Positions 37,355 through 48,607 of a stretch of DNA of 48,607 nt are shown piece by piece. The stretch comes from an uncultured Geobacter sp. (GTDB lineage: Bacteria > Desulfobacterota > Desulfuromonadia > Geobacterales > CAIOGM01). The stretch covers positions 1-48,607 of the forward strand of contig CAIOGM010000033.1 of assembly GCA_903857795.1 (NCBI GenBank), written 5' to 3'. Each line of letters starts with the position of its first letter. Position 1 is the first letter of the stretch. Position numbers and translations under genes: made by a program. The notes beneath the pieces were generated by a model. It did not search any database. It was given only the letters and a program-made list of their open reading frames with translations, and was not told the DNA's origin.

Positions 37355-39847
<2,493 letters not shown>

Positions 39848-39892: not shown

Positions 39893-40585
39893 TCATCTGG
39901 CGCCGCCCTCCCCAAGGAGTTCACGCTGGTAGATGGTCACCATCTCCATGGTGGTATCGGTCCGGTACTTGCGCCGCAGGCTCCCCAGATGCTTTTCCAC
40001 CGTCCGGATGCTGATCTCCAGCCGTTCGGCGATCTTCTTGCTCCGGACCCCCCGGCAGAGGAGGTCGAGCACCTCCGCCTCCCGTCTGGAGACCGGATCG
40101 AGGGGGGATGCAGCGTAGTGGTGGTGGGCCGTCACCGCTTCCGTGATCTCAGGGCAGACATACCTCCTCCCGGCGATGGCCATGGTGATGGCCAGGTGGA
40201 GCTCCTGACGAGTCGCCCTCTTCAGGATGTAGCCGGCCAGCCCCAGTTCGACGGCGGCCATCAGCAGCAGCCCGTCCGTCACCCCGGTGACCGCGATCAC
40301 CAGGGTTTCGGGCCACTCCTCCCTGATCCGGCGGGCCGCCGCCACACCGTCCATCCCCGGCAGTCGCAGGTCCATGAGCACCATCCGCGGGCGCAGCTCC
40401 GCCACCAGGGCAAGGGCCTCCTCACCGGTGGCCGCCTCCCCCACCACCGTCACCTCCGGAAACGCCTCAACCAGCAGACAGAACGCATCCCGTATCAGCT
40501 CTTCGTCGTCGACGATTATCAGCCGCACCGGTGCGTGCGGGTGGGATGGGGTGCGGCTCTCCGTGGTCGGCAGGGTGCTCTTCAT
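39893..40585 (-). CDS. NarL/LuxR-type response regulator
   Basis: 230 residues. The receiver (about 20-140) has the acidic pair 'VDDEE', phosphoacceptor Asp72 ('LMDLRLPGMDG'), Thr100 and Lys122. The HTH domain (about 165-225) reads 'VSRREAEVLDLLCRGVRSKKIAERLEISIRTVEKHLGSLRRKY'. The ATG at 40585 follows GAGGAG; an ATG at 40621 lies within the palindromic region and is less likely. It is divergent from the PEP-CTERM operon and upstream of its likely kinase. Confidence 0.9.
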   Translation of the reverse strand: MKSTLPTTESRTPSHPHAPVRLIIVDDEELIRDAFCLLVEAFPEVTVVGEAATGEEALALVAELRPRMVLMDLRLPGMDGVAAARRIREEWPETLVIAVTGVTDGLLLMAAVELGLAGYILKRATRQELHLAITMAIAGRRYVCPEITEAVTAHHHYAASPLDPVSRREAEVLDLLCRGVRSKKIAERLEISIRTVEKHLGSLRRKYRTDTTMEMVTIYQRELLGEGGAR

Positions 40586-40604
40586 AACCGGCAGGCTCCT
40601 CGAC

Positions 40605-40658
40605 GGTAGTAAAACTACCACCTCATTAATAGGTACTTTCCCTACTATATTAAATAGT
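40605..40658. promoter_or_regulatory. Cluster of palindromes in the divergent control region
   Basis: GTAGTAAAACTAC (40606-40618, within GGTAGTAAAACTACC) and, on the opposite strand, GTAGGGAAAGTAC (40633-40645) match at 10 of 13 positions. A third palindrome, ACTAT-N5-ATAGT, lies at 40644-40658. They sit between the LuxR-type regulator and the PEP-CTERM operon. LuxR-type regulators bind such short inverted repeats, so these are candidate operators. Confidence 0.55.
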
Positions 40659-40846
40659 TACGACGTGCTACGGTATAGCGTATCCGGTAATGGATTGCAA
40701 GGAGTTAAAATTTCATGAGGAGGGAGGCGCCGCCCATCGCCCGAAAAGCGCATCACGCAACCGGCAGTTCATCCAAAACCCGGCAGACGGCGGATCTCCT
40801 GTCGTCACTCTTTTATCGGCTCTCACTATAACTAAGGAGTACCCAC

Positions 40847-41545
40847 ATGAAACGAACCATCGCCCCCTTCATCAACACGGCGACCTTAGCCCTCACCCTC
40901 CTCCTGGCCACCACCGTCTGGGGCTCTCCCGTTTACCTGGATGTCTCGGGTAAATTGAGCTCTTCCACCGTTCTGGGGCAACTCGGCAGCCCTGATCCGG
41001 GCGTTCCCCTTGCAGATAACACCCCCTTCAGCTATCACGCTACATTCGACACCACTAACATTTACGGTCCCGGCGGTACCGGTTTGGTTGGCTATAACCT
41101 CTCTTCCTTGACATTCAACCTTGCCGGCGACATCTATCCTCTCGTACCGATCGGGAACCTGATTGTTGCCTTGTTCGACCCCACGGGCCCTTTTAGCGGC
41201 ATGTATGGAGCAGGGCTCGTCAGCTTAGTGCTGCCCGGAGGGTTCATGCTCCCAGCTTACTCCACCGCATCCCCTTCATTTTTGCTCCCGGATCCTGCCC
41301 CTTTTGTCCTGAAATCATCTGATTACCTGAGCCAATTGAGCCCCGGCGCCAAGGCGGCTTTTCTTTTAAACGAGACGACCTACCTGGCTCAAATTACCTT
41401 CGCGACCGAAGGGCCCACCACCACCTTCGGTTATGCTTCCCCCGTCCCGGAACCCTCCACCTATCTCCTGGTCACCTTGGGGCTTGGGATGCTGCTGTTT
41501 GTGCGGCAGAAAAAAACAAAGGACCAACAAAGGAGCACCAGATGA
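40847..41545 (+). CDS. PEP-CTERM domain protein 1
   Basis: 232 residues. A signal peptide (to about 'TVWG|SP', residue 26) is followed by a beta-rich, secreted-type body. The C-terminal sorting signal is Val-Pro-Glu-Pro-Ser-Thr from residue 200, then a hydrophobic helix 'LLVTLGLGMLLFV' and basic 'RQKK'. Proteins with this signal are processed by an exosortase and delivered to the cell surface or matrix. A CTAAGGAGT precedes the ATG. The last nine codons form an added tail that also supplies the Shine-Dalgarno of the next gene, which overlaps as ATGA. It is distantly related to PEP-CTERM protein 2. Confidence 0.9.
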   Translation: MKRTIAPFINTATLALTLLLATTVWGSPVYLDVSGKLSSSTVLGQLGSPDPGVPLADNTPFSYHATFDTTNIYGPGGTGLVGYNLSSLTFNLAGDIYPLVPIGNLIVALFDPTGPFSGMYGAGLVSLVLPGGFMLPAYSTASPSFLLPDPAPFVLKSSDYLSQLSPGAKAAFLLNETTYLAQITFATEGPTTTFGYASPVPEPSTYLLVTLGLGMLLFVRQKKTKDQQRSTR

Positions 41546-42183
41546 AAAAACGGATCTTCTCTCTTTTCCTCCTGGCAACTCTCACCCTTACCCTCGCCGC
41601 TCCGGCCATGGCGTCGCCGGTGCTGACGCTCCATTCCACGGGGAGTTTCGGCCAAACGTCGACCCTGAACGGTAAAGCCTTTGGCGTCGACACCCCCTTC
41701 TCCCTGCAGGCCCAGTTTAACCCAAGTATTGATCAAACTCCGATGTCTGGGGTCGGGGTATTCAGCATCACCTCTTTTTCCATCTACCTGCAAAACAGAA
41801 CCTACACCGCTTCGCCTTCGGCAAAGCTCAATGTTGTGTTAATGAGCCCACCGTATCTGCCTGTCTATGGTGCCGGATTAGTTGACGCGCCGTCTCTAAC
41901 TTCAGAGTTTATAAGTTATTTTTCATCCGCAACACCCACATACAAGGCCGATACGCCCGCGGCCACGCAGTTTTCGAATTTTGTTGGGAAATACCAGTCC
42001 GCCGCGTACACGATCACGCTGGACAATGGGGAAGGTGACCTGGTCATTCGCAATCTGGCCGCCTCGGGGAATTACACGGCAAATATCACCGCCGTTGCCG
42101 TTCCCGAACCCTCCACCTACGTCCTGGTCACCATGGGGCTGGGGATGCTGGGGTTTGTGCGGCAGAAAAAAGCCAAGGGCTAA
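41542..42183 (+). CDS. PEP-CTERM domain protein 2
   Basis: 213 residues. Signal peptide 'MKKRIFSLFLLATLTLTLA' with cleavage near 'AMA|SP'. The opening of the mature part ('SPVLTLHSTGSFGQ...DTPFSLQAQFN') parallels protein 1 ('SPVYLDVSGKL...NTPFSYHATFD'), and both share 'VYGAGLV' or 'MYGAGLV', so the pair arose by duplication. The sorting signal is Val-Pro-Glu-Pro-Ser-Thr from residue 187, then 'VLVTMGLGMLGFV' and 'RQKK'. AAAGGAGC precedes the ATG. The TPR gene follows after 17 bp. Confidence 0.9.
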   Translation: MKKRIFSLFLLATLTLTLAAPAMASPVLTLHSTGSFGQTSTLNGKAFGVDTPFSLQAQFNPSIDQTPMSGVGVFSITSFSIYLQNRTYTASPSAKLNVVLMSPPYLPVYGAGLVDAPSLTSEFISYFSSATPTYKADTPAATQFSNFVGKYQSAAYTITLDNGEGDLVIRNLAASGNYTANITAVAVPEPSTYVLVTMGLGMLGFVRQKKAKG

Positions 42184-42200
42184 GGTGCGGAAACACGACC

Positions 42201-43643
42201 ATGTCTTACAAGATCCTTATCGTACTCTTCTACCTCGCCACCCTGGGGCTGGTCTCCTTCCTCGGCGTCACCCTGCAGCGCGACTGGTGCCGCTATTTTA
42301 TCGAGTTCAAGAGGAGACGGCGGAAGAGACGACGGCGCAGGAAAAAATCTACCGAAAAGCCGGCAAGATCCCCGCGCCCTTTCTTCCTCTTCTGGTGGCT
42401 GAAGACATCCGGCCGTGCGCTGGCAGCCGCCTGCAGTGTCTACCTCCTGCTGACCGCCGGTTTCTATCTGGCCTGGCCGCTGCTCCGTTACGGTGGCACG
42501 AGCGGCCATGCCGCGGCCGCGATCCCGGTCAAAACGGCACAGCAGAAAGAGCAGTGGAAGAGCTACGTGGAACTCTGCCTGGTCGCCGAGAATAAGCCTC
42601 AAGACCCCTTCCTACAGCTGAAACTGGCCCGGGCCCAACGTGATCTGGGACTGGCGCACAAGACGCTGGCCACCTACCACCGGGTGATCTATCTGGATAC
42701 TCTCTCCCTGGACGCCCAATACGAACTGGGCTGTCTGGCCGTAGGCATGGGCGAGACGAATCTGGCAATTTCCCAGGTCGTCGCACTGACCCGCAACTGG
42801 CCCACCCGGCCGGAGCCTCACCTGCTCCAGGCCCGTATCGACATCCGGGCGGGAAAACCGGTTGAGGGGCTAACCCAGGTACGGAGAGCTCTGGCTGCCG
42901 AACCGGGTGACCGGGAGGTTAGGCTTCTGCTCATTGAGATGCTGCTCCAGCAACACGCCTATGCCGAGGTGCCCCGCCTGGTGCAGGAGGGGTTGAAGCA
43001 GCCGCCTTCCCAGCTCACTCAGACGGTTAACAGCTCACAATGGGTGACCCTGTCCACTGGGGGAGCACCCCCTGTGACCACGACCACTCTCTTGTACCTC
43101 CTGGCCCGGAGCCAGGTCGGTCTGGGGCAGTTCGCCGCGGCCGACGCGACGCTCCAGGCCGCGGCCACCACCGACCCGAGCTCGTCGGAGTCGTACATGG
43201 CCCTGGGAGACCTGCGGATGAGCTGCAGTAAGTACCGTAGCGCGCTGGCAGCCTATGAAGAGGTGCTGAAACGGAATCCAGAGAGTACCATGGCCATGAA
43301 CAACATCGCCAGCCTCTCCGTGGAACATGGCTTCGACCTGGCGCGGGCCGCAACCCTGGCCGCGCGGATGTATACCAAGTATCCCCAAGAACCGGCGGTG
43401 GCGGATACCCTGGGGTGGGTGCTCTTCTCCCAACAGGGGAAACTGGAGCAGGCGCTGCCGCTGCTGCAGTTCGCCGCAACCGGCGCACCCAAGAACCCGC
43501 TCCACCGCTACCACTACGGCGCGGCGCTGCTGAAAGACGGGCAGGTCGAAAGCGGCCGAAATGAGCTAACCGCGGCGCTGAAGCTCTCCGGGGAGTCCGA
43601 CGGTGCGGTCAAGGCCCGGCTGCTGCTAGGAGGAAAAGGATAA
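42201..43643 (+). CDS. TPR-repeat membrane protein 1 with a polybasic loop
   Basis: 480 residues. Two membrane helices (about 4-24 and 70-93) flank a short loop that includes 13 consecutive Lys/Arg residues (37-49); by the positive-inside rule this loop is cytoplasmic and the long C-terminal part is periplasmic. From about residue 115 it carries tetratricopeptide repeats, including 'YELGCLAVGMGETNLAISQVV', 'YMALGDLRMSCSKYRSALAAYEEVL' and a last unit starting 'ADTLGWVLFSQQGKLEQALPLL'. The C-terminus resembles PrsT, the TPR protein of exosortase systems. It follows the two PEP-CTERM genes. It is highly similar to the next gene. Ribosome binding site weak. Confidence 0.88.
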   Translation: MSYKILIVLFYLATLGLVSFLGVTLQRDWCRYFIEFKRRRRKRRRRRKKSTEKPARSPRPFFLFWWLKTSGRALAAACSVYLLLTAGFYLAWPLLRYGGTSGHAAAAIPVKTAQQKEQWKSYVELCLVAENKPQDPFLQLKLARAQRDLGLAHKTLATYHRVIYLDTLSLDAQYELGCLAVGMGETNLAISQVVALTRNWPTRPEPHLLQARIDIRAGKPVEGLTQVRRALAAEPGDREVRLLLIEMLLQQHAYAEVPRLVQEGLKQPPSQLTQTVNSSQWVTLSTGGAPPVTTTTLLYLLARSQVGLGQFAAADATLQAAATTDPSSSESYMALGDLRMSCSKYRSALAAYEEVLKRNPESTMAMNNIASLSVEHGFDLARAATLAARMYTKYPQEPAVADTLGWVLFSQQGKLEQALPLLQFAATGAPKNPLHRYHYGAALLKDGQVESGRNELTAALKLSGESDGAVKARLLLGGKG

Positions 43644-43705
43644 GGTACGGGACTCCCTGTGACCGGTTGTTCCTGAAAGCCGGCTGACTCCTGCCGCATC
43701 TTCTG

Positions 43706-43734
43706 TTGACGGTTTCCCCACTATCGGATACCTT
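43706..43734 (+). promoter_or_regulatory. Possible internal promoter for TPR protein 2
   Basis: TTGACG (43706-43711), 17-bp spacer, TACCTT (43729-43734). The -10 is weak. It lies in the 125-bp gap between the two TPR genes. Confidence 0.3.
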
Positions 43735-43768
43735 GCGTGACAATCCATCCTGCGGAGCAACCACCACC

Positions 43769-45214
43769 ATGTCATACAAGATCCTTATCGTTCTCTTCTG
43801 CCTCACCACCGCGGGGTTTATCGCCTTCCTCGGCATCACCCTGCAGCGCGCCTGGCGCAACTATTTCATCGAATTCAAGACGAAACGGCACAAGAAACGA
43901 CGGCGTGGAGAGAAGTCGGAGGAACTGCCGGAGAAAACCCCGCGCCCCTTCTTCCTCTTCTGGTGGCTGAAGACATCCGGCCGGGCGCTGGCGATCGGCT
44001 GCAGCGCCTACCTCCTGCTGAGCGCCGGCTTCTATCTGGTCTGGCCGCTGCTCCGCTACGGCGGCACAAGCGGCCACGCCGCGGCCGCGATCCCGGACAA
44101 GACGGAGAAACAGAAAGAGCAGTGGAAGAGCTACGTGGAGTTGAGCCTGGCGGCCGAGAAGAAGCCCCAGGACGCCCCCATCCAGCTGAAACTGGCCCGG
44201 GCCCAGCGCGATCTGGGACTAGGGGCCAAGGCGCTGACCACCTACCGCCGGGTGATCTACCTGGATCCCCTCTCCCTGGACGCCCAGTACGAACTGGGCT
44301 GTCTGGCCGTGGCCATGGGCGAGACGAATCTGGCCGCCTCCCAGGTCGTCGAACTGAATCGCCACTGGCCAACCCGGCCGGAGCCGCACCTGCTCCAGGC
44401 CCGTATCGACATCCGGGCAGGGAAACGGGTTGAGGGGGTGGCCCAGGTGCGGGGAGCGCTGGCGGCTGATCCGGGCAACCGGGAGGTTCGGCTCCTGCTC
44501 ATTGACGTACTGCTCCAGCAACGCGCCTATGCCGAGGCGGCCCGCCTGGCCCAGGAGGGGCTGAAGCAGCAAGCGCCATCCCGTCTTGATCAGACGGTCA
44601 ATAGCTCACAAGGAGTGCCTCCGTCCGGGGGGATATCAACCCCTGCGACCACATCCAGCCTCTTCTTTCTCCTGGCCCGGAGCCAGGTCGGCCTGGGGCA
44701 GTTCGCCGAGGCCGACGCGACGCTCCAGGCCGCAGCCGCGGCCGACCCGCTCTCCCCGGCGCCGTACATGGCCCTGGGGGACCTCCGGATGAGCCGCAGT
44801 GAGTACCGCAGAGCGCTGGCCGCCTATGAAGAGGTGCTGAAACGGGACAAGGAAAGTACTCTGGCCATGAACAACATCGCCAGCCTCTCCGTGGAACACG
44901 GCTTCGACCTGGAGCGGGCCGCTACCCTGGCGGCGCGGATGTACGCCAAATATCCGCGGGATCCGGCGGTGGCTGACACCCTGGGGTGGGTGCTCTTCTC
45001 CCAACAGGGGAAACTGGAACAGGCGCTGCCGCTGTTGCGGTTCGCCGCAACCGCCGCACCCAGGAACCCGATCCACCGCTACCACTACGGCGCGGCACTG
45101 CTGAAGAACGGGCAGGTCGAGGTCGGTCGTAAGGAGCTGGCGGCGGCGCTCAAGCTCTCCGGGGAGTTCGACGGTGCGGAAAAGGCGCGGGCGCTGCTGG
45201 GAGGGAAGAGTTGA
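43769..45214 (+). CDS. TPR-repeat membrane protein 2 (paralogue of the previous gene)
   Basis: 481 residues with the same plan as its neighbour: helix (4-24), basic cytoplasmic loop, helix (about 70-93), periplasmic TPR region. Identity to protein 1 is high over nearly the whole length at both protein and DNA level, which indicates a fairly recent tandem duplication. Divergence is concentrated in the basic loop (here 'KTKRHKKRRRGEK', a shorter run) and in the linker near residues 275-300 between the two TPR halves. The start at 43769 ('MSYKILIVLF') matches the start of protein 1; the frame is open upstream to 43706 but lacks similarity. A 7-bp inverted repeat CTGGAGC/GCTCCAG (45216-45241) follows the stop. 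Confidence 0.88.
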   Translation: MSYKILIVLFCLTTAGFIAFLGITLQRAWRNYFIEFKTKRHKKRRRGEKSEELPEKTPRPFFLFWWLKTSGRALAIGCSAYLLLSAGFYLVWPLLRYGGTSGHAAAAIPDKTEKQKEQWKSYVELSLAAEKKPQDAPIQLKLARAQRDLGLGAKALTTYRRVIYLDPLSLDAQYELGCLAVAMGETNLAASQVVELNRHWPTRPEPHLLQARIDIRAGKRVEGVAQVRGALAADPGNREVRLLLIDVLLQQRAYAEAARLAQEGLKQQAPSRLDQTVNSSQGVPPSGGISTPATTSSLFFLLARSQVGLGQFAEADATLQAAAAADPLSPAPYMALGDLRMSRSEYRRALAAYEEVLKRDKESTLAMNNIASLSVEHGFDLERAATLAARMYAKYPRDPAVADTLGWVLFSQQGKLEQALPLLRFAATAAPRNPIHRYHYGAALLKNGQVEVGRKELAAALKLSGEFDGAEKARALLGGKS

Positions 45215-45316
45215 CCTGGAGCTAACATAACGCGGCTCCAGCACGATCTTTCTTGACAATGTTCGGTTGCCTGCGCCAGGGTGTAGCTTCCCAATCCGCA
45301 CACAAGGCGCCCTCAT

Positions 45317-47296
45317 ATGCTCATCAGAACCCTGCGTTGCCCCGCTCCCCGTTGGACTGTTCCGTTCCTCCTCCTGGTTGTCTCCCTCTGGTTCCGGCTC
45401 CCCGACTCATACGCAGCGCCCCTGCTCCTGGAAAAACCGCAGCCGTACTCCCTGGCCGGTCATCTGGAAAACCTGGTTGATCCCACAGGGGCGCTCACCT
45501 TCAAGGAGCTGCTCACCGCCGGCGCCACGGCCCGCTTCACCCCGCTTCCCGGATTCGTCAACCAGGGATTCATCCGCGCGGCCAGCTGGAGCCGCTTCAC
45601 CTACCAACCCGCCGCACATGATAGCTCGGAGGATCTGTTTTTACGGCTGACCCCCGCCTTTCTGGACGAAGTCACGCTCTATGTCCAGGTCGGATCGAAC
45701 CCCGCCGACCCCGCCTCCTACCGCAAACATGACCTGGGCGACCATTACCCCGCCGAGCTCCGCCAGATACGCCATCCCGACATGGTGGCGCCGCTCCCGT
45801 CGACTCCCGGAATCCCACGGCAGGTCTACATCCGCGTCAGGAGCTCCAGCACCCATACCCTCCAGGGGTGGATCTATCCGAGCGACCAGTTCATCGGCTG
45901 GTCCGCCAACTACACCACCTGGATGGGCGGCCTGCTGGGGGTCATCCTCTTCGATCTGGTGATCAGCGCGCTCCTGGCGCTCATGCTGCGTGACGTCCTT
46001 ATCGGTTACTACTCGCTCTTCGCCCTGACCTTCTTTGTCCGGCAGCTGGGGATCGACGGGGCGATCTTCATCCTCTGTCCGTCGGTTGCCCACCTGATCA
46101 ATGATTATCTGGTGGGAGGCGGCATCAGCCTCGGCTTGTGCGCCTACAGCCTCTTTGTCATGCGCCTCTTCAACACCCACGGCGAACGGCCGTACGTCCA
46201 CCGTTTCCTGCAGCTCAACATCCTCATCGGGGCGGCCACCACCCTCGGCATCCCCCTGGGGTGGTATGGCCAGCTGGCCCCCGTGACGACCATCTGTTAT
46301 CTGCTCCTGGCCTGCTTCATCCCGCTGCTCGCCTACCAGTACCTGCGGCGCGGCGCCCCGGCCGGCGGCTGGATCGTCATGGGGTTCTCCGTGGTCCTGA
46401 TCCCGGCGGTGCCGCGTTTTCTCGTGGTGCTCGGGCTGATCCAGCCGACCTGGTTCACCACCTACGGCTACTACTACGGCATGGTCCTGCAGATGGTGAT
46501 GATCACCCTGGCGCTGATCAAACGGCTGGAGGTCTCGCGGGAACTGCTCCTCTCCACCTCCCGCCGAACCGAGGCGGTGGCCGTGGAGCTGGCCAAGGAG
46601 ATGACCGGCGAGCTGCGCGAGGCGCTGCAGCGCCAGACCCGCTTCGTCGCCATGGTCTGCCACGAGTACCGGACCCCGCTGGCCATCATCCGGGCCAACC
46701 TGGACCTGCTGGCTCTGCTTCAGGAACAGGACGACAACATCGCCTTCGCCGTGGGGAAGATGAAGCGGGCAGTAGCCCGCCTGGTGGAGGTCCTGGAGGT
46801 CTCCCTGGGGAGGGTGCGGCTCTCCGACGGCGCGCTCACGCTCCGGCCGGAGCCGCTGGAGTTGGAGCGGCTCTGCTCCCGGCTCCTGGAACAGGCAACC
46901 GAATACTGGCCCGACCGGCGGGTAGTGGTGGTTGCCGGAGACACCGCCGTGGTGCAGGGCGATCCCCTCCTGCTCCAGACGGCGCTGCTCAACCTGGTGG
47001 ACAATGGGCTCAAATACTCTCGCGCCGACCGCCCCGTTACCGTCTCCTGGACGGTGGTCGGAGGAGAGGTGGTCGTCCGGGTCGCGGACCAGGGATCCGG
47101 CGTCACCCCCCAGGAGCAGGGACGGCTCTTCGAGAAATATTTCCGGGGGAGCGCCACCACCGGGACCGTAGGCGCCGGGTTGGGACTCTGGCTGGTGGCA
47201 CGAATAGTGGAAGAGCATGGAGGAAGCGTCGCGCTGGAGAGCAGCGTAACCGGGGCCGTCATGGCCGTGCGTCTGCCGCTGAAGAGGAACCCATGA
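45317..47296 (+). CDS. 7TMR-DISM sensor histidine kinase
   Basis: 659 residues. A signal peptide (about 1-34) precedes a periplasmic 7TMR-DISMED2 carbohydrate-binding-like domain (about 50-190). Seven membrane helices follow (about 200-400). HisKA carries His449 in 'VCHEYRTPL', and HATPase has 'NLVDNGLKYS', 'DQGSGV' and 'GAGLGLWL'. DISMED2 domains are thought to sense sugars or envelope polymers, which would fit a system controlling surface material. It overlaps the next regulator gene by 4 bp (ATGA), so the two form a pair. Confidence 0.9.
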   Translation: MLIRTLRCPAPRWTVPFLLLVVSLWFRLPDSYAAPLLLEKPQPYSLAGHLENLVDPTGALTFKELLTAGATARFTPLPGFVNQGFIRAASWSRFTYQPAAHDSSEDLFLRLTPAFLDEVTLYVQVGSNPADPASYRKHDLGDHYPAELRQIRHPDMVAPLPSTPGIPRQVYIRVRSSSTHTLQGWIYPSDQFIGWSANYTTWMGGLLGVILFDLVISALLALMLRDVLIGYYSLFALTFFVRQLGIDGAIFILCPSVAHLINDYLVGGGISLGLCAYSLFVMRLFNTHGERPYVHRFLQLNILIGAATTLGIPLGWYGQLAPVTTICYLLLACFIPLLAYQYLRRGAPAGGWIVMGFSVVLIPAVPRFLVVLGLIQPTWFTTYGYYYGMVLQMVMITLALIKRLEVSRELLLSTSRRTEAVAVELAKEMTGELREALQRQTRFVAMVCHEYRTPLAIIRANLDLLALLQEQDDNIAFAVGKMKRAVARLVEVLEVSLGRVRLSDGALTLRPEPLELERLCSRLLEQATEYWPDRRVVVVAGDTAVVQGDPLLLQTALLNLVDNGLKYSRADRPVTVSWTVVGGEVVVRVADQGSGVTPQEQGRLFEKYFRGSATTGTVGAGLGLWLVARIVEEHGGSVALESSVTGAVMAVRLPLKRNP

Positions 47297-47997
47297 ACGA
47301 AACCCGACGGGTAGTGATTATCGAAGATGACCAGGACCTGAGAGAGAGCATCATCCGCTTTCTCCTGGTGGCCGGAGTGGAGGCTGTCGGTGTCGGCAGC
47401 GTCCTCGAATTCTATGAAACCGTCATCACCCGCATCTTTGACGTGGCGGTGGTGGACATCAACCTCCCCGACCAGTCGGGCTTCACCCTGGCCGATTATC
47501 TCCGCCGCAACACCGACTTGGGGATCATCATCATCACCGCCCGCGACGGCATGGAAGACCGGGTGCGGGGATACGGCGCCGGGGCCGACCTCTATCTGGT
47601 CAAACCGGTGAATATGCCGGAGCTGGCTGCGGCCATCATCAACCTGACCCGCCGACGCCGGGAGAGAAACTCACCCCAGATCCCCGCGCCTGTTGCCCTA
47701 TGGACCCTGGAACGGAGCTCCTGGACCCTCGTCACCCCCCTGGGGATCAGGGTTCCCCTCTCAGGACAGGAGCGGACCCTGATGAGCTGTCTGGTGGAGG
47801 CCCAGGGGGAGGCGGTAGCCCGCGCCGATCTGTTCACGGCCCTGGGATATGAAGAGTCAAGCACTAATTCCCGCGCCCTGGATTCGCTGGTGCAGCGTCT
47901 GCGGCGCAAGATCGAGAGCAGCACCGGACGCCCCGCACCCCTGGAAAGCGGCTATCGCCGGGGGTACAGCTTCACAAGCCTGCTGCATATGGCGTAA
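47293..47997 (+). CDS. OmpR/PhoB-type response regulator
   Basis: 234 residues. The receiver (1-120) has the acidic cluster 'EDDQD' at 11-15, phosphoacceptor Asp55 ('VVDINLPDQSG'), Thr82 and Lys104. The C-terminal winged-helix DNA-binding domain (about 140-230) shows 'LSGQERTLMSCLVEAQGEAVARADL' and 'SLVQRLRRKIE', with a final 'YRRGYSF'. It overlaps the upstream kinase as ATGA. A plausible target is the periodic repeat at 48051-48090 before the secreted-protein gene. Confidence 0.92.
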   Translation: MNETRRVVIIEDDQDLRESIIRFLLVAGVEAVGVGSVLEFYETVITRIFDVAVVDINLPDQSGFTLADYLRRNTDLGIIIITARDGMEDRVRGYGAGADLYLVKPVNMPELAAAIINLTRRRRERNSPQIPAPVALWTLERSSWTLVTPLGIRVPLSGQERTLMSCLVEAQGEAVARADLFTALGYEESSTNSRALDSLVQRLRRKIESSTGRPAPLESGYRRGYSFTSLLHMA

Positions 47998-48364
47998 CCG
48001 GATACGTCAAAGCACCGGTTTCCGTCTCATTTCCCCGCCCGGCGCCGTTTCATTTCGTCACATTTCGATGAAATTCGTCACAATTGCCACCACTCGTGCC
48101 ATAACTCACCGGTCTGATTATTATATTTGCTCTATGTCCCCCTCTAATCGAACTGAATAATTCCGCCGTTCACCTTCTCGGTTTCCTGTTTTCGGCCGAC
48201 TGCGGCTCATCCCGCACCGCATCGGCGGTGATCATGCCCGTTTCATCCGGTCACGAAATTGCAGTATCCTTGTTGTCGGAGCGTTCGGCGTTCGCCCGGC
48301 AGGCGATCCGAACTGCTGATCAATGCCGGTCAGCACCACACCGAGCCAAAAGGAGTAACCACGA
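47998..48364 (+). other. Long regulatory region before the secreted-protein gene
   Basis: About 365 bp without a gene. It contains a 10-bp-periodic direct repeat (48051-48090), an AT-rich -10-like TATATT (48122-48127) and two stem-loops in the presumed leader: GTTCGG (48283-48288) / CCGAAC (48308-48313) with an inner CGCC/GGCG stem, and TGCTGA (48314-48319) / TCAGCA (48330-48335), just before the Shine-Dalgarno AAGGAG. Confidence 0.6.
48051..48090 (+). promoter_or_regulatory. 10-bp-periodic direct repeats, candidate OmpR-family operator
   Basis: Successive 10-bp blocks CATTTCGTCA (48051), CATTTCGATG (48061), AAATTCGTCA (48071) and CAATTGCCAC (48081). The 9-mer TTCGTCACA recurs exactly 20 bp apart (48054-48062 and 48074-48082). 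One-turn spacing is the typical binding pattern of OmpR/PhoB regulators, and such a regulator is encoded immediately upstream. Confidence 0.55.
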
Positions 48365-48607
48365 ATGAAAGTGACAACAACATTGAAAGTCGATGAAAAG
48401 CGGCTGCTGGCCTATGCGGTGGCGGCAGGCGCGGTTCTGGCCGCGGCGGGTCCGGCGGACGCCTCGGTGGTGTATGGCAAGGTTGGGCACCAATTAGCCT
48501 ATAACGAAGGCTTCTACCCCGTCAACATCGTCGACAAAGTCGGCAATAAGATTTTTGCAATGTATTTTGTTAATTCAGATGCCCTCACGGCCGGCCACCC
48601 GGCTAAC
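48365..48607 (+). CDS. Predicted secreted protein, N-terminal part (cut by window edge)
   Basis: 81 residues visible. The start 'MKVTTTLKVDEKRLLAYAVAAGAVLAAAGPADA' is a signal peptide with cleavage near 'ADA|SVVYG'. Similar leaders occur in secreted PEP-CTERM-type proteins, but the C-terminus, which would prove it, is outside the window. AAGGAG is 9 nt upstream of the ATG. Its position behind the kinase-regulator pair suggests it is their target. Confidence 0.75.
   Translation, partial: MKVTTTLKVDEKRLLAYAVAAGAVLAAAGPADASVVYGKVGHQLAYNEGFYPVNIVDKVGNKIFAMYFVNSDALTAGHPAN

Follow-up and report, generated by a model that had tools for sequence, protein, structure and literature searches.

Little is known about which proteins assist exosortases in the selection and transport of PEP-CTERM proteins. 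The locus analysed here, in which two PEP-CTERM genes are directly followed by two TPR genes and flanked by two sets of signalling genes, raises the question of whether the TPR proteins have a part in that process and how far the neighbouring regulators belong to the same unit. The window, a stretch of 48,607 nucleotides, covers the whole of contig C33 in a genome of 4.05 Mb and 179 contigs (G000), and it was compared with the other three species of the same genus (G001–G003).

The locus and its genomic setting

The gene order described in the first-pass annotation was confirmed with its frames intact: genes for a LuxR-type regulator and a hybrid kinase diverge from a series consisting of two PEP-CTERM genes, two TPR genes, a DISM kinase gene, an OmpR-type regulator gene and a secreted-protein gene (Table 1). 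PEP1 and PEP2 overlap by 4 bp (ATGA), and a gap of 17 bp separates PEP2 from TPR1. The gaps that follow measure 125 bp (TPR1 to TPR2) and 102 bp (TPR2 to the kinase), the latter containing an 8-bp stem (-14 kcal/mol). The OmpR-type regulator is translationally coupled to the DISM kinase, with which it shares an ATGA overlap, and this pair may form a transcription unit of its own. Scans for sigma-70 promoters and terminators returned no more matches than in shuffled sequence. The best candidate for a -24/-12 site upstream of PEP1 agreed with the consensus at 5 of 12 positions and was not convincing.

Table 1. Features of the locus, with positions in the window.
Feature	Position	Strand	Description and basis
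Hybrid histidine kinase, membrane	37355-39847	-	830 aa; Pfam PAS-HisKA-HATPase-REC
LuxR-type response regulator	39893-40621	-	Pfam Response_reg and GerE
Palindrome GGTAGTAAAACTACC	40605-40619	no strand	Window sequence; between the divergent LuxR and PEP1 genes
PEP1, PEP-CTERM surface protein	40847-41545	+	232 aa, tail VPEPSTYLLVTLGLGMLLFVRQKK; PF07589, TIGR02595
PEP2, PEP-CTERM surface protein	41542-42183	+	213 aa, tail VPEPSTYVLVTMGLGMLGFVRQKK; PF07589, homology to PEP1
TPR1	42201-43643	+	Two-TM hairpin at residues ~2-98, TPR superhelix at ~113-477; Pfam TPR, AlphaFold2, topology
TPR2, tandem duplicate of TPR1	43769-45214	+	79% identity to TPR1, its sister in the tree
7TMR-DISM sensor histidine kinase	45317-47296	+	Pfam 7TMR-DISM_7TM, DISMED2, HisKA, HATPase_c
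OmpR-type response regulator	47293-47997	+	Pfam Response_reg, Trans_reg_C
Secreted-protein gene, 5' part	48365-48607	+	Ends at the contig end after 81 codons

On the divergent side, the HPt domain of the hybrid kinase was marginal (23.7 bits against a Pfam cut-off of 24.6), and the true start of the LuxR-type regulator is probably the ATG at about 40585. A second element in the same region (40605-40646), GGTACTTTCCCTACT at 40632, is half-similar to the palindrome. Both are possible binding sites of the LuxR-type regulator; the palindrome was not found upstream of the G001 ortholog, and no LuxR-site motif common to the window and the G001 orthologs was found. At the other end, the final secreted-protein gene is incomplete because the window is the whole contig. 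Its sole relative among the ORFs fetched was a PEP-CTERM protein on another contig of the same genome (L154:1602-2351 on C150, E 2.7e-8), and it probably encodes another PEP-CTERM protein.

Both PEP1 and PEP2 exceeded the Pfam cut-off (PF07589: 26.0 and 30.6 bits, respectively, against 20.7) and the NCBIfam cut-off (TIGR02595: 25.7 and 22.9 bits against 16), which upheld their original assignment as PEP-CTERM proteins. Their N-termini carry a hydrophobic stretch ending in small residues, and the structure prediction of PEP2 had a mean pLDDT of 41, too low to be of use. The genome contains 47 PEP-CTERM motifs. An exosortase had been expected elsewhere in the genome, and three exosortase genes (PF09721) were indeed present, on contigs C88, C128 and C90, with no PF09721 match on the contig of the window. 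The C88 exosortase scored above the XrtA cut-off and has counterparts of 78-81% identity in all three other species. Canonical PrsK and PrsR are encoded on C65 (565.7 and 668.8 bits for TIGR02916 and TIGR02915, respectively), the sole genes above these cut-offs in the genome, and true PrsT is encoded on C129 and C128. The window therefore does not represent the canonical Prs locus. As a separate observation, the C90 exosortase (L054:9483-10807), the third in the genome, is closest to XrtC and has a small PEP-CTERM gene alongside, with the tail VPEPTTLPLLCMG; the two are perhaps a dedicated one-substrate pair.

The hairpin-TPR family

TPR1 and TPR2 belong to a family in which, according to alignment and hydropathy, one to five repeated transmembrane hairpins precede a TPR domain. 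The turn of the hairpin carries the motif D-L-x-x-A-x-x-x-Y-R ... F-x-R-W-W, conserved across some 30 hairpins, and in each of 21 members its positive charge exceeded that of the outer loops. The turn should therefore be cytoplasmic and the TPR domain periplasmic, with predicted anchoring in the inner membrane. In the AlphaFold2 model of TPR1 (mean pLDDT 82), two long helices are joined to a TPR superhelix, and the closest folds in the PDB were TPR superhelices such as OGT (Z 26), mostly matched over the TPR part. Matches of this kind are frequent among TPR proteins and do not on their own reveal a function.

Full-length relatives of TPR1 were limited to the same genus in searches of 58 genomes and 84,980 species, and their source records are the uncultured MAGs Desulfuromonadales F14_bin-0369, Geobacter sp. 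E14_bin-1665 and Geobacteraceae VK3_bin-0517. Beyond the genus, only the TPR part was matched, in long PrsT-like proteins without the hairpin motif. A hairpin-only profile (A4), which gave E values of about 1e-23 for TPR1 and TPR2, both among its 14 rows, had hits in 4 of the 141 genomes of the order, each belonging to this genus, marginal matches (6.5e-5 or weaker, several with stop codons) aside. About 34 copies are dispersed over the four genomes, from about 1 to 15 per species. The open literature, to which the search was confined with subscription papers outside its scope, contained no description of such a membrane-hairpin TPR family. One member of 888 aa (L048:8881-11547, G001:C199) has about five hairpin repeats, and its gene has another TPR gene and three PEP-CTERM genes as neighbours.

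HemY-type proteins have an N-terminal membrane hairpin of two transmembrane helices, followed by TPR repeats. A relationship with them was rejected: TIGR00540 gave E values of 0.12-0.49 only, and the hairpin motif of the family differs and is repeated. The known TPR partner of PEP-CTERM systems is PrsT, which was inferred in 2006 from phylogenetic profiles (PMC1569441). The window proteins share with it a TPR domain, aligning with the C-terminal third of the TIGR02917 profile (about 556-898), a gene position near PEP-CTERM genes and an expected periplasmic site. However, the description of TPR1 and TPR2 as PrsT-like could not be maintained. Their scores of 104.1 and 112.3 bits fall short of the TIGR02917 cut-off of 312, the true PrsT genes lie elsewhere, and in place of the lipobox of the PrsT lipoprotein their N-terminus consists of a transmembrane helix, a basic turn and a second transmembrane helix. 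Unlike PrsT, the hairpin-TPR family is also multicopy, genus-specific and predicted to be anchored by its one to five hairpins.

Two further systems invite comparison. In Aquincola tertiaricarbonis, prsT lies beside pepA and is required for flocculation (PMC9850573). The PEP-CTERM gene is directly upstream of the TPR gene there as in the window, but prsT is of the canonical lipoprotein kind and present once, and pepA is RpoN-dependent (PMC9850573). LbcA of Pseudomonas aeruginosa (PDB 7rqf), likewise a periplasmic TPR superhelix, is a natural bacterial protein that resembled TPR1 in structure (Z 20.0, 348 residues aligned, rmsd 8.7) and sequence (E 2.5e-8), although having the TPR fold in common does not establish function. 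In contrast to TPR1, LbcA is a lipoprotein with other anchoring, and its partner is the periplasmic protease CtpA, not an exosortase.

Linkage to PEP-CTERM and exosortase genes

A PEP-CTERM gene was located within 2.5 kb of 15 of the 29 family genes, corresponding to 12 of 26 loci, whereas ~7% would be expected at about one PEP-CTERM gene per 100 kb. Neighbours were assigned by hand from the fetched loci and the PEP-CTERM motif list. By locus, the linkage gave a p of about 1e-7, and with the window left out it held for 11 of 25 loci; p-values of this kind overstate independence because the loci share ancestry, and they serve as guides only. The TPR and PEP-CTERM genes were co-directional in all 12 linked loci. 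The hairpin-only search further revealed partial copies, two of which (G002:C167 and G001:C126) lie beside PEP-CTERM motifs on the same strand. In two genomes, the gene next to a TPR gene encodes an exosortase with a fused EpsI-like part (G001:C367, L034:6466-9656; G002:C314, L038:1542-4921). These fused exosortases scored below the named Xrt subtypes, and no obvious copy of this type was found in G000. The functional link between the TPR family and PEP-CTERM or exosortase genes, first proposed for the window, is supported by these data and recurs across the genus.

The neighbours also share a sorting-signal subtype. Tails of the form PEPx[ST]Y, with Tyr three residues after the PEP motif, were present in 14 of 15 TPR-adjacent PEP-CTERM proteins, compared with 8 of 38 others in G000 and 14 of 52 others when a G002 sample was added (14/15 vs. 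14/52, Fisher p 5e-6). PEPxTY tails also occur where a PEP-CTERM gene has a kinase gene but no TPR gene beside it; thus, the tail defines a wider class that includes the TPR-linked genes and is no TPR signature. The ectodomains of the TPR-adjacent proteins belong to unrelated families, and the family of PEP1 and PEP2 also adjoins a TPR gene of another clade (G001:C432). What the TPR partners have in common is the tail, not the ectodomain.

On balance, we lean towards an explanation in which the core of the locus is a PEP-CTERM/TPR operon whose TPR proteins act as genus-specific inner-membrane adaptors for exosortase-dependent surface display. One hairpin would anchor each window TPR protein in the inner membrane, with the turn in the cytoplasm and the superhelix in the periplasm. 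The superhelix would most likely dock either the exosortase itself or the PEP-CTERM precursors, which a C-terminal helix likewise keeps in the membrane, and docking would help sorting or onward export. Both the docking of tail or exosortase and the step served are what we infer from the linkage, the predicted topology and the PrsT precedent. A more specific version, in which the loci are dispersed regulated cassettes and the TPR protein is a dedicated exosortase adaptor that recognises PEPxTY tails and hands these precursors on, either to the exosortase or to the following step of export, seems rather unlikely to us. A genus in which a membrane-anchored TPR family has expanded alongside PEP-CTERM genes, and at some sites alongside the exosortase, offers natural replicates for studying the role of the TPR partner and whether routing differs between tail subtypes.

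A PEP-CTERM neighbour is lacking at about half of the copies. Some copies adjoin genes of secreted repeat proteins, one adjoins selA, and hairpin-TPR genes lie directly beside an HlyB-type type I secretion transporter at G002:C127 (L049:5553-9317) and G001:C302 (L051:1-2964). Some copies may therefore serve other cargo, and the family may serve another secretion route too. These copies would also suit TPR proteins that are general envelope scaffolds for secretion, polysaccharide or outer-membrane assembly, placed close to PEP-CTERM genes by shared surface-gene islands and having no direct part in sorting. We give this alternative tentative credence at most, as the PEP-TPR loci are all co-directional, two copies adjoin an exosortase and the neighbours have a sorting-signal subtype in common. 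Ordinary paralog expansion with no function common to the copies, with TPR genes hitchhiking on mobile or recombining surface-protein islands, could account for the wide swing in copy number among species and for the many copies located at the end of a contig or close to ORFs that look mobile. It appears improbable against the conserved turn motif, the consistent strand and gene order, and the purifying selection on TPR1 and TPR2 (dN 0.12, dS 0.33, dN/dS about 0.37).

The twin genes also bear on the idea that each TPR protein is dedicated to one of the two substrates, with both two-component systems in joint control. The gene order of the window is in its favour, and the PEP1/PEP2 overlap and the short gap before TPR1 fit one transcript. 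However, TPR1 and TPR2 are close sisters (support 100/99), whereas PEP1 and PEP2 share about 35% identity; the TPR pair is far closer than the PEP pair, and the duplications are therefore probably of different age, the TPR pair having probably arisen long after the PEP pair diverged. Moreover, the genes are arranged PEP-PEP-TPR-TPR, not as a repeated PEP-TPR unit, and TPR clades and ectodomain families are mixed across the loci. The stem between TPR2 and the kinase, and the different neighbour of the DISM pair in G001 and G002 (see below), likewise argue against a single jointly controlled unit. One TPR protein per substrate is accordingly not supported, and this arrangement as a whole is very improbable.

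Regulators across the genus

The DISM kinase has one ortholog (78-81% identity) in each of G001–G003. In G001 and G002, it lies 3' of ndh, a gene named by eye from its N-terminus. In G003 (L134:400-520, C78), a remnant of 12 residues of a TPR C-terminus with a stop codon was found just upstream of the kinase; the match is short (E 0.2), although its position and frame are those expected. Relatives of the OmpR-type regulator comprised one of 85% identity in G003 and copies of 79% and 81% in G002, where one OmpR copy is situated 3' of a PEP-TPR pair. In the DISM kinase family, four of the nine members lie no more than about 3 kb from a PEP-CTERM gene. For the other system, G001:C536 encodes orthologs of the hybrid kinase (64%) and the LuxR-type regulator (65%) side by side, divergent from a secreted-protein gene, and a LuxR/hybrid-kinase paralog on G001:C153 points away from two genes for secreted repeat proteins and two for PEP-CTERM proteins.

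These findings support a repeated association of secreted-protein or PEP-CTERM genes with each of the two regulator families. Judged by the conservation of gene order, the exact module does not hold up, as none of the other three species yielded the complete order, but its PEP-TPR core does. The LuxR/hybrid-kinase and DISM/OmpR pairs are probably local regulators from families that have repeatedly settled beside such operons, and both two-component systems might control this one module. Precedents exist for a LuxR-type regulator over matrix genes (EmbR in Rubrivivax; PMC3684757) and for PrsR-type control of PEP-CTERM genes (Desulfovibrio; PMC3333781). The window regulators resemble PrsK and PrsR (Haft et al. 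2006, PMC1569441) in being sensor kinases and response regulators beside, or acting on, PEP-CTERM genes, but they are LuxR- and OmpR-type, with no good -24/-12 site 5' of PEP1. Their identification as PrsK and PrsR was rejected, with scores below the TIGR02916 and TIGR02915 cut-offs, GerE or Trans_reg_C output domains and no sigma-54 domain.

A common EF-G neighbourhood was considered as synteny and dismissed, because the TPR genes of G001 and G002 lie on the opposite side of EF-G from those of the window. Closely similar ORFs of 500-540 aa that start with MRKKLPIGI (L136:9453-11081, L135:5791-7329 and L042:1-1523) recur in G001 and G002 close to the kinase, OmpR and PEP-TPR genes; they are possibly selfish or mobile elements.
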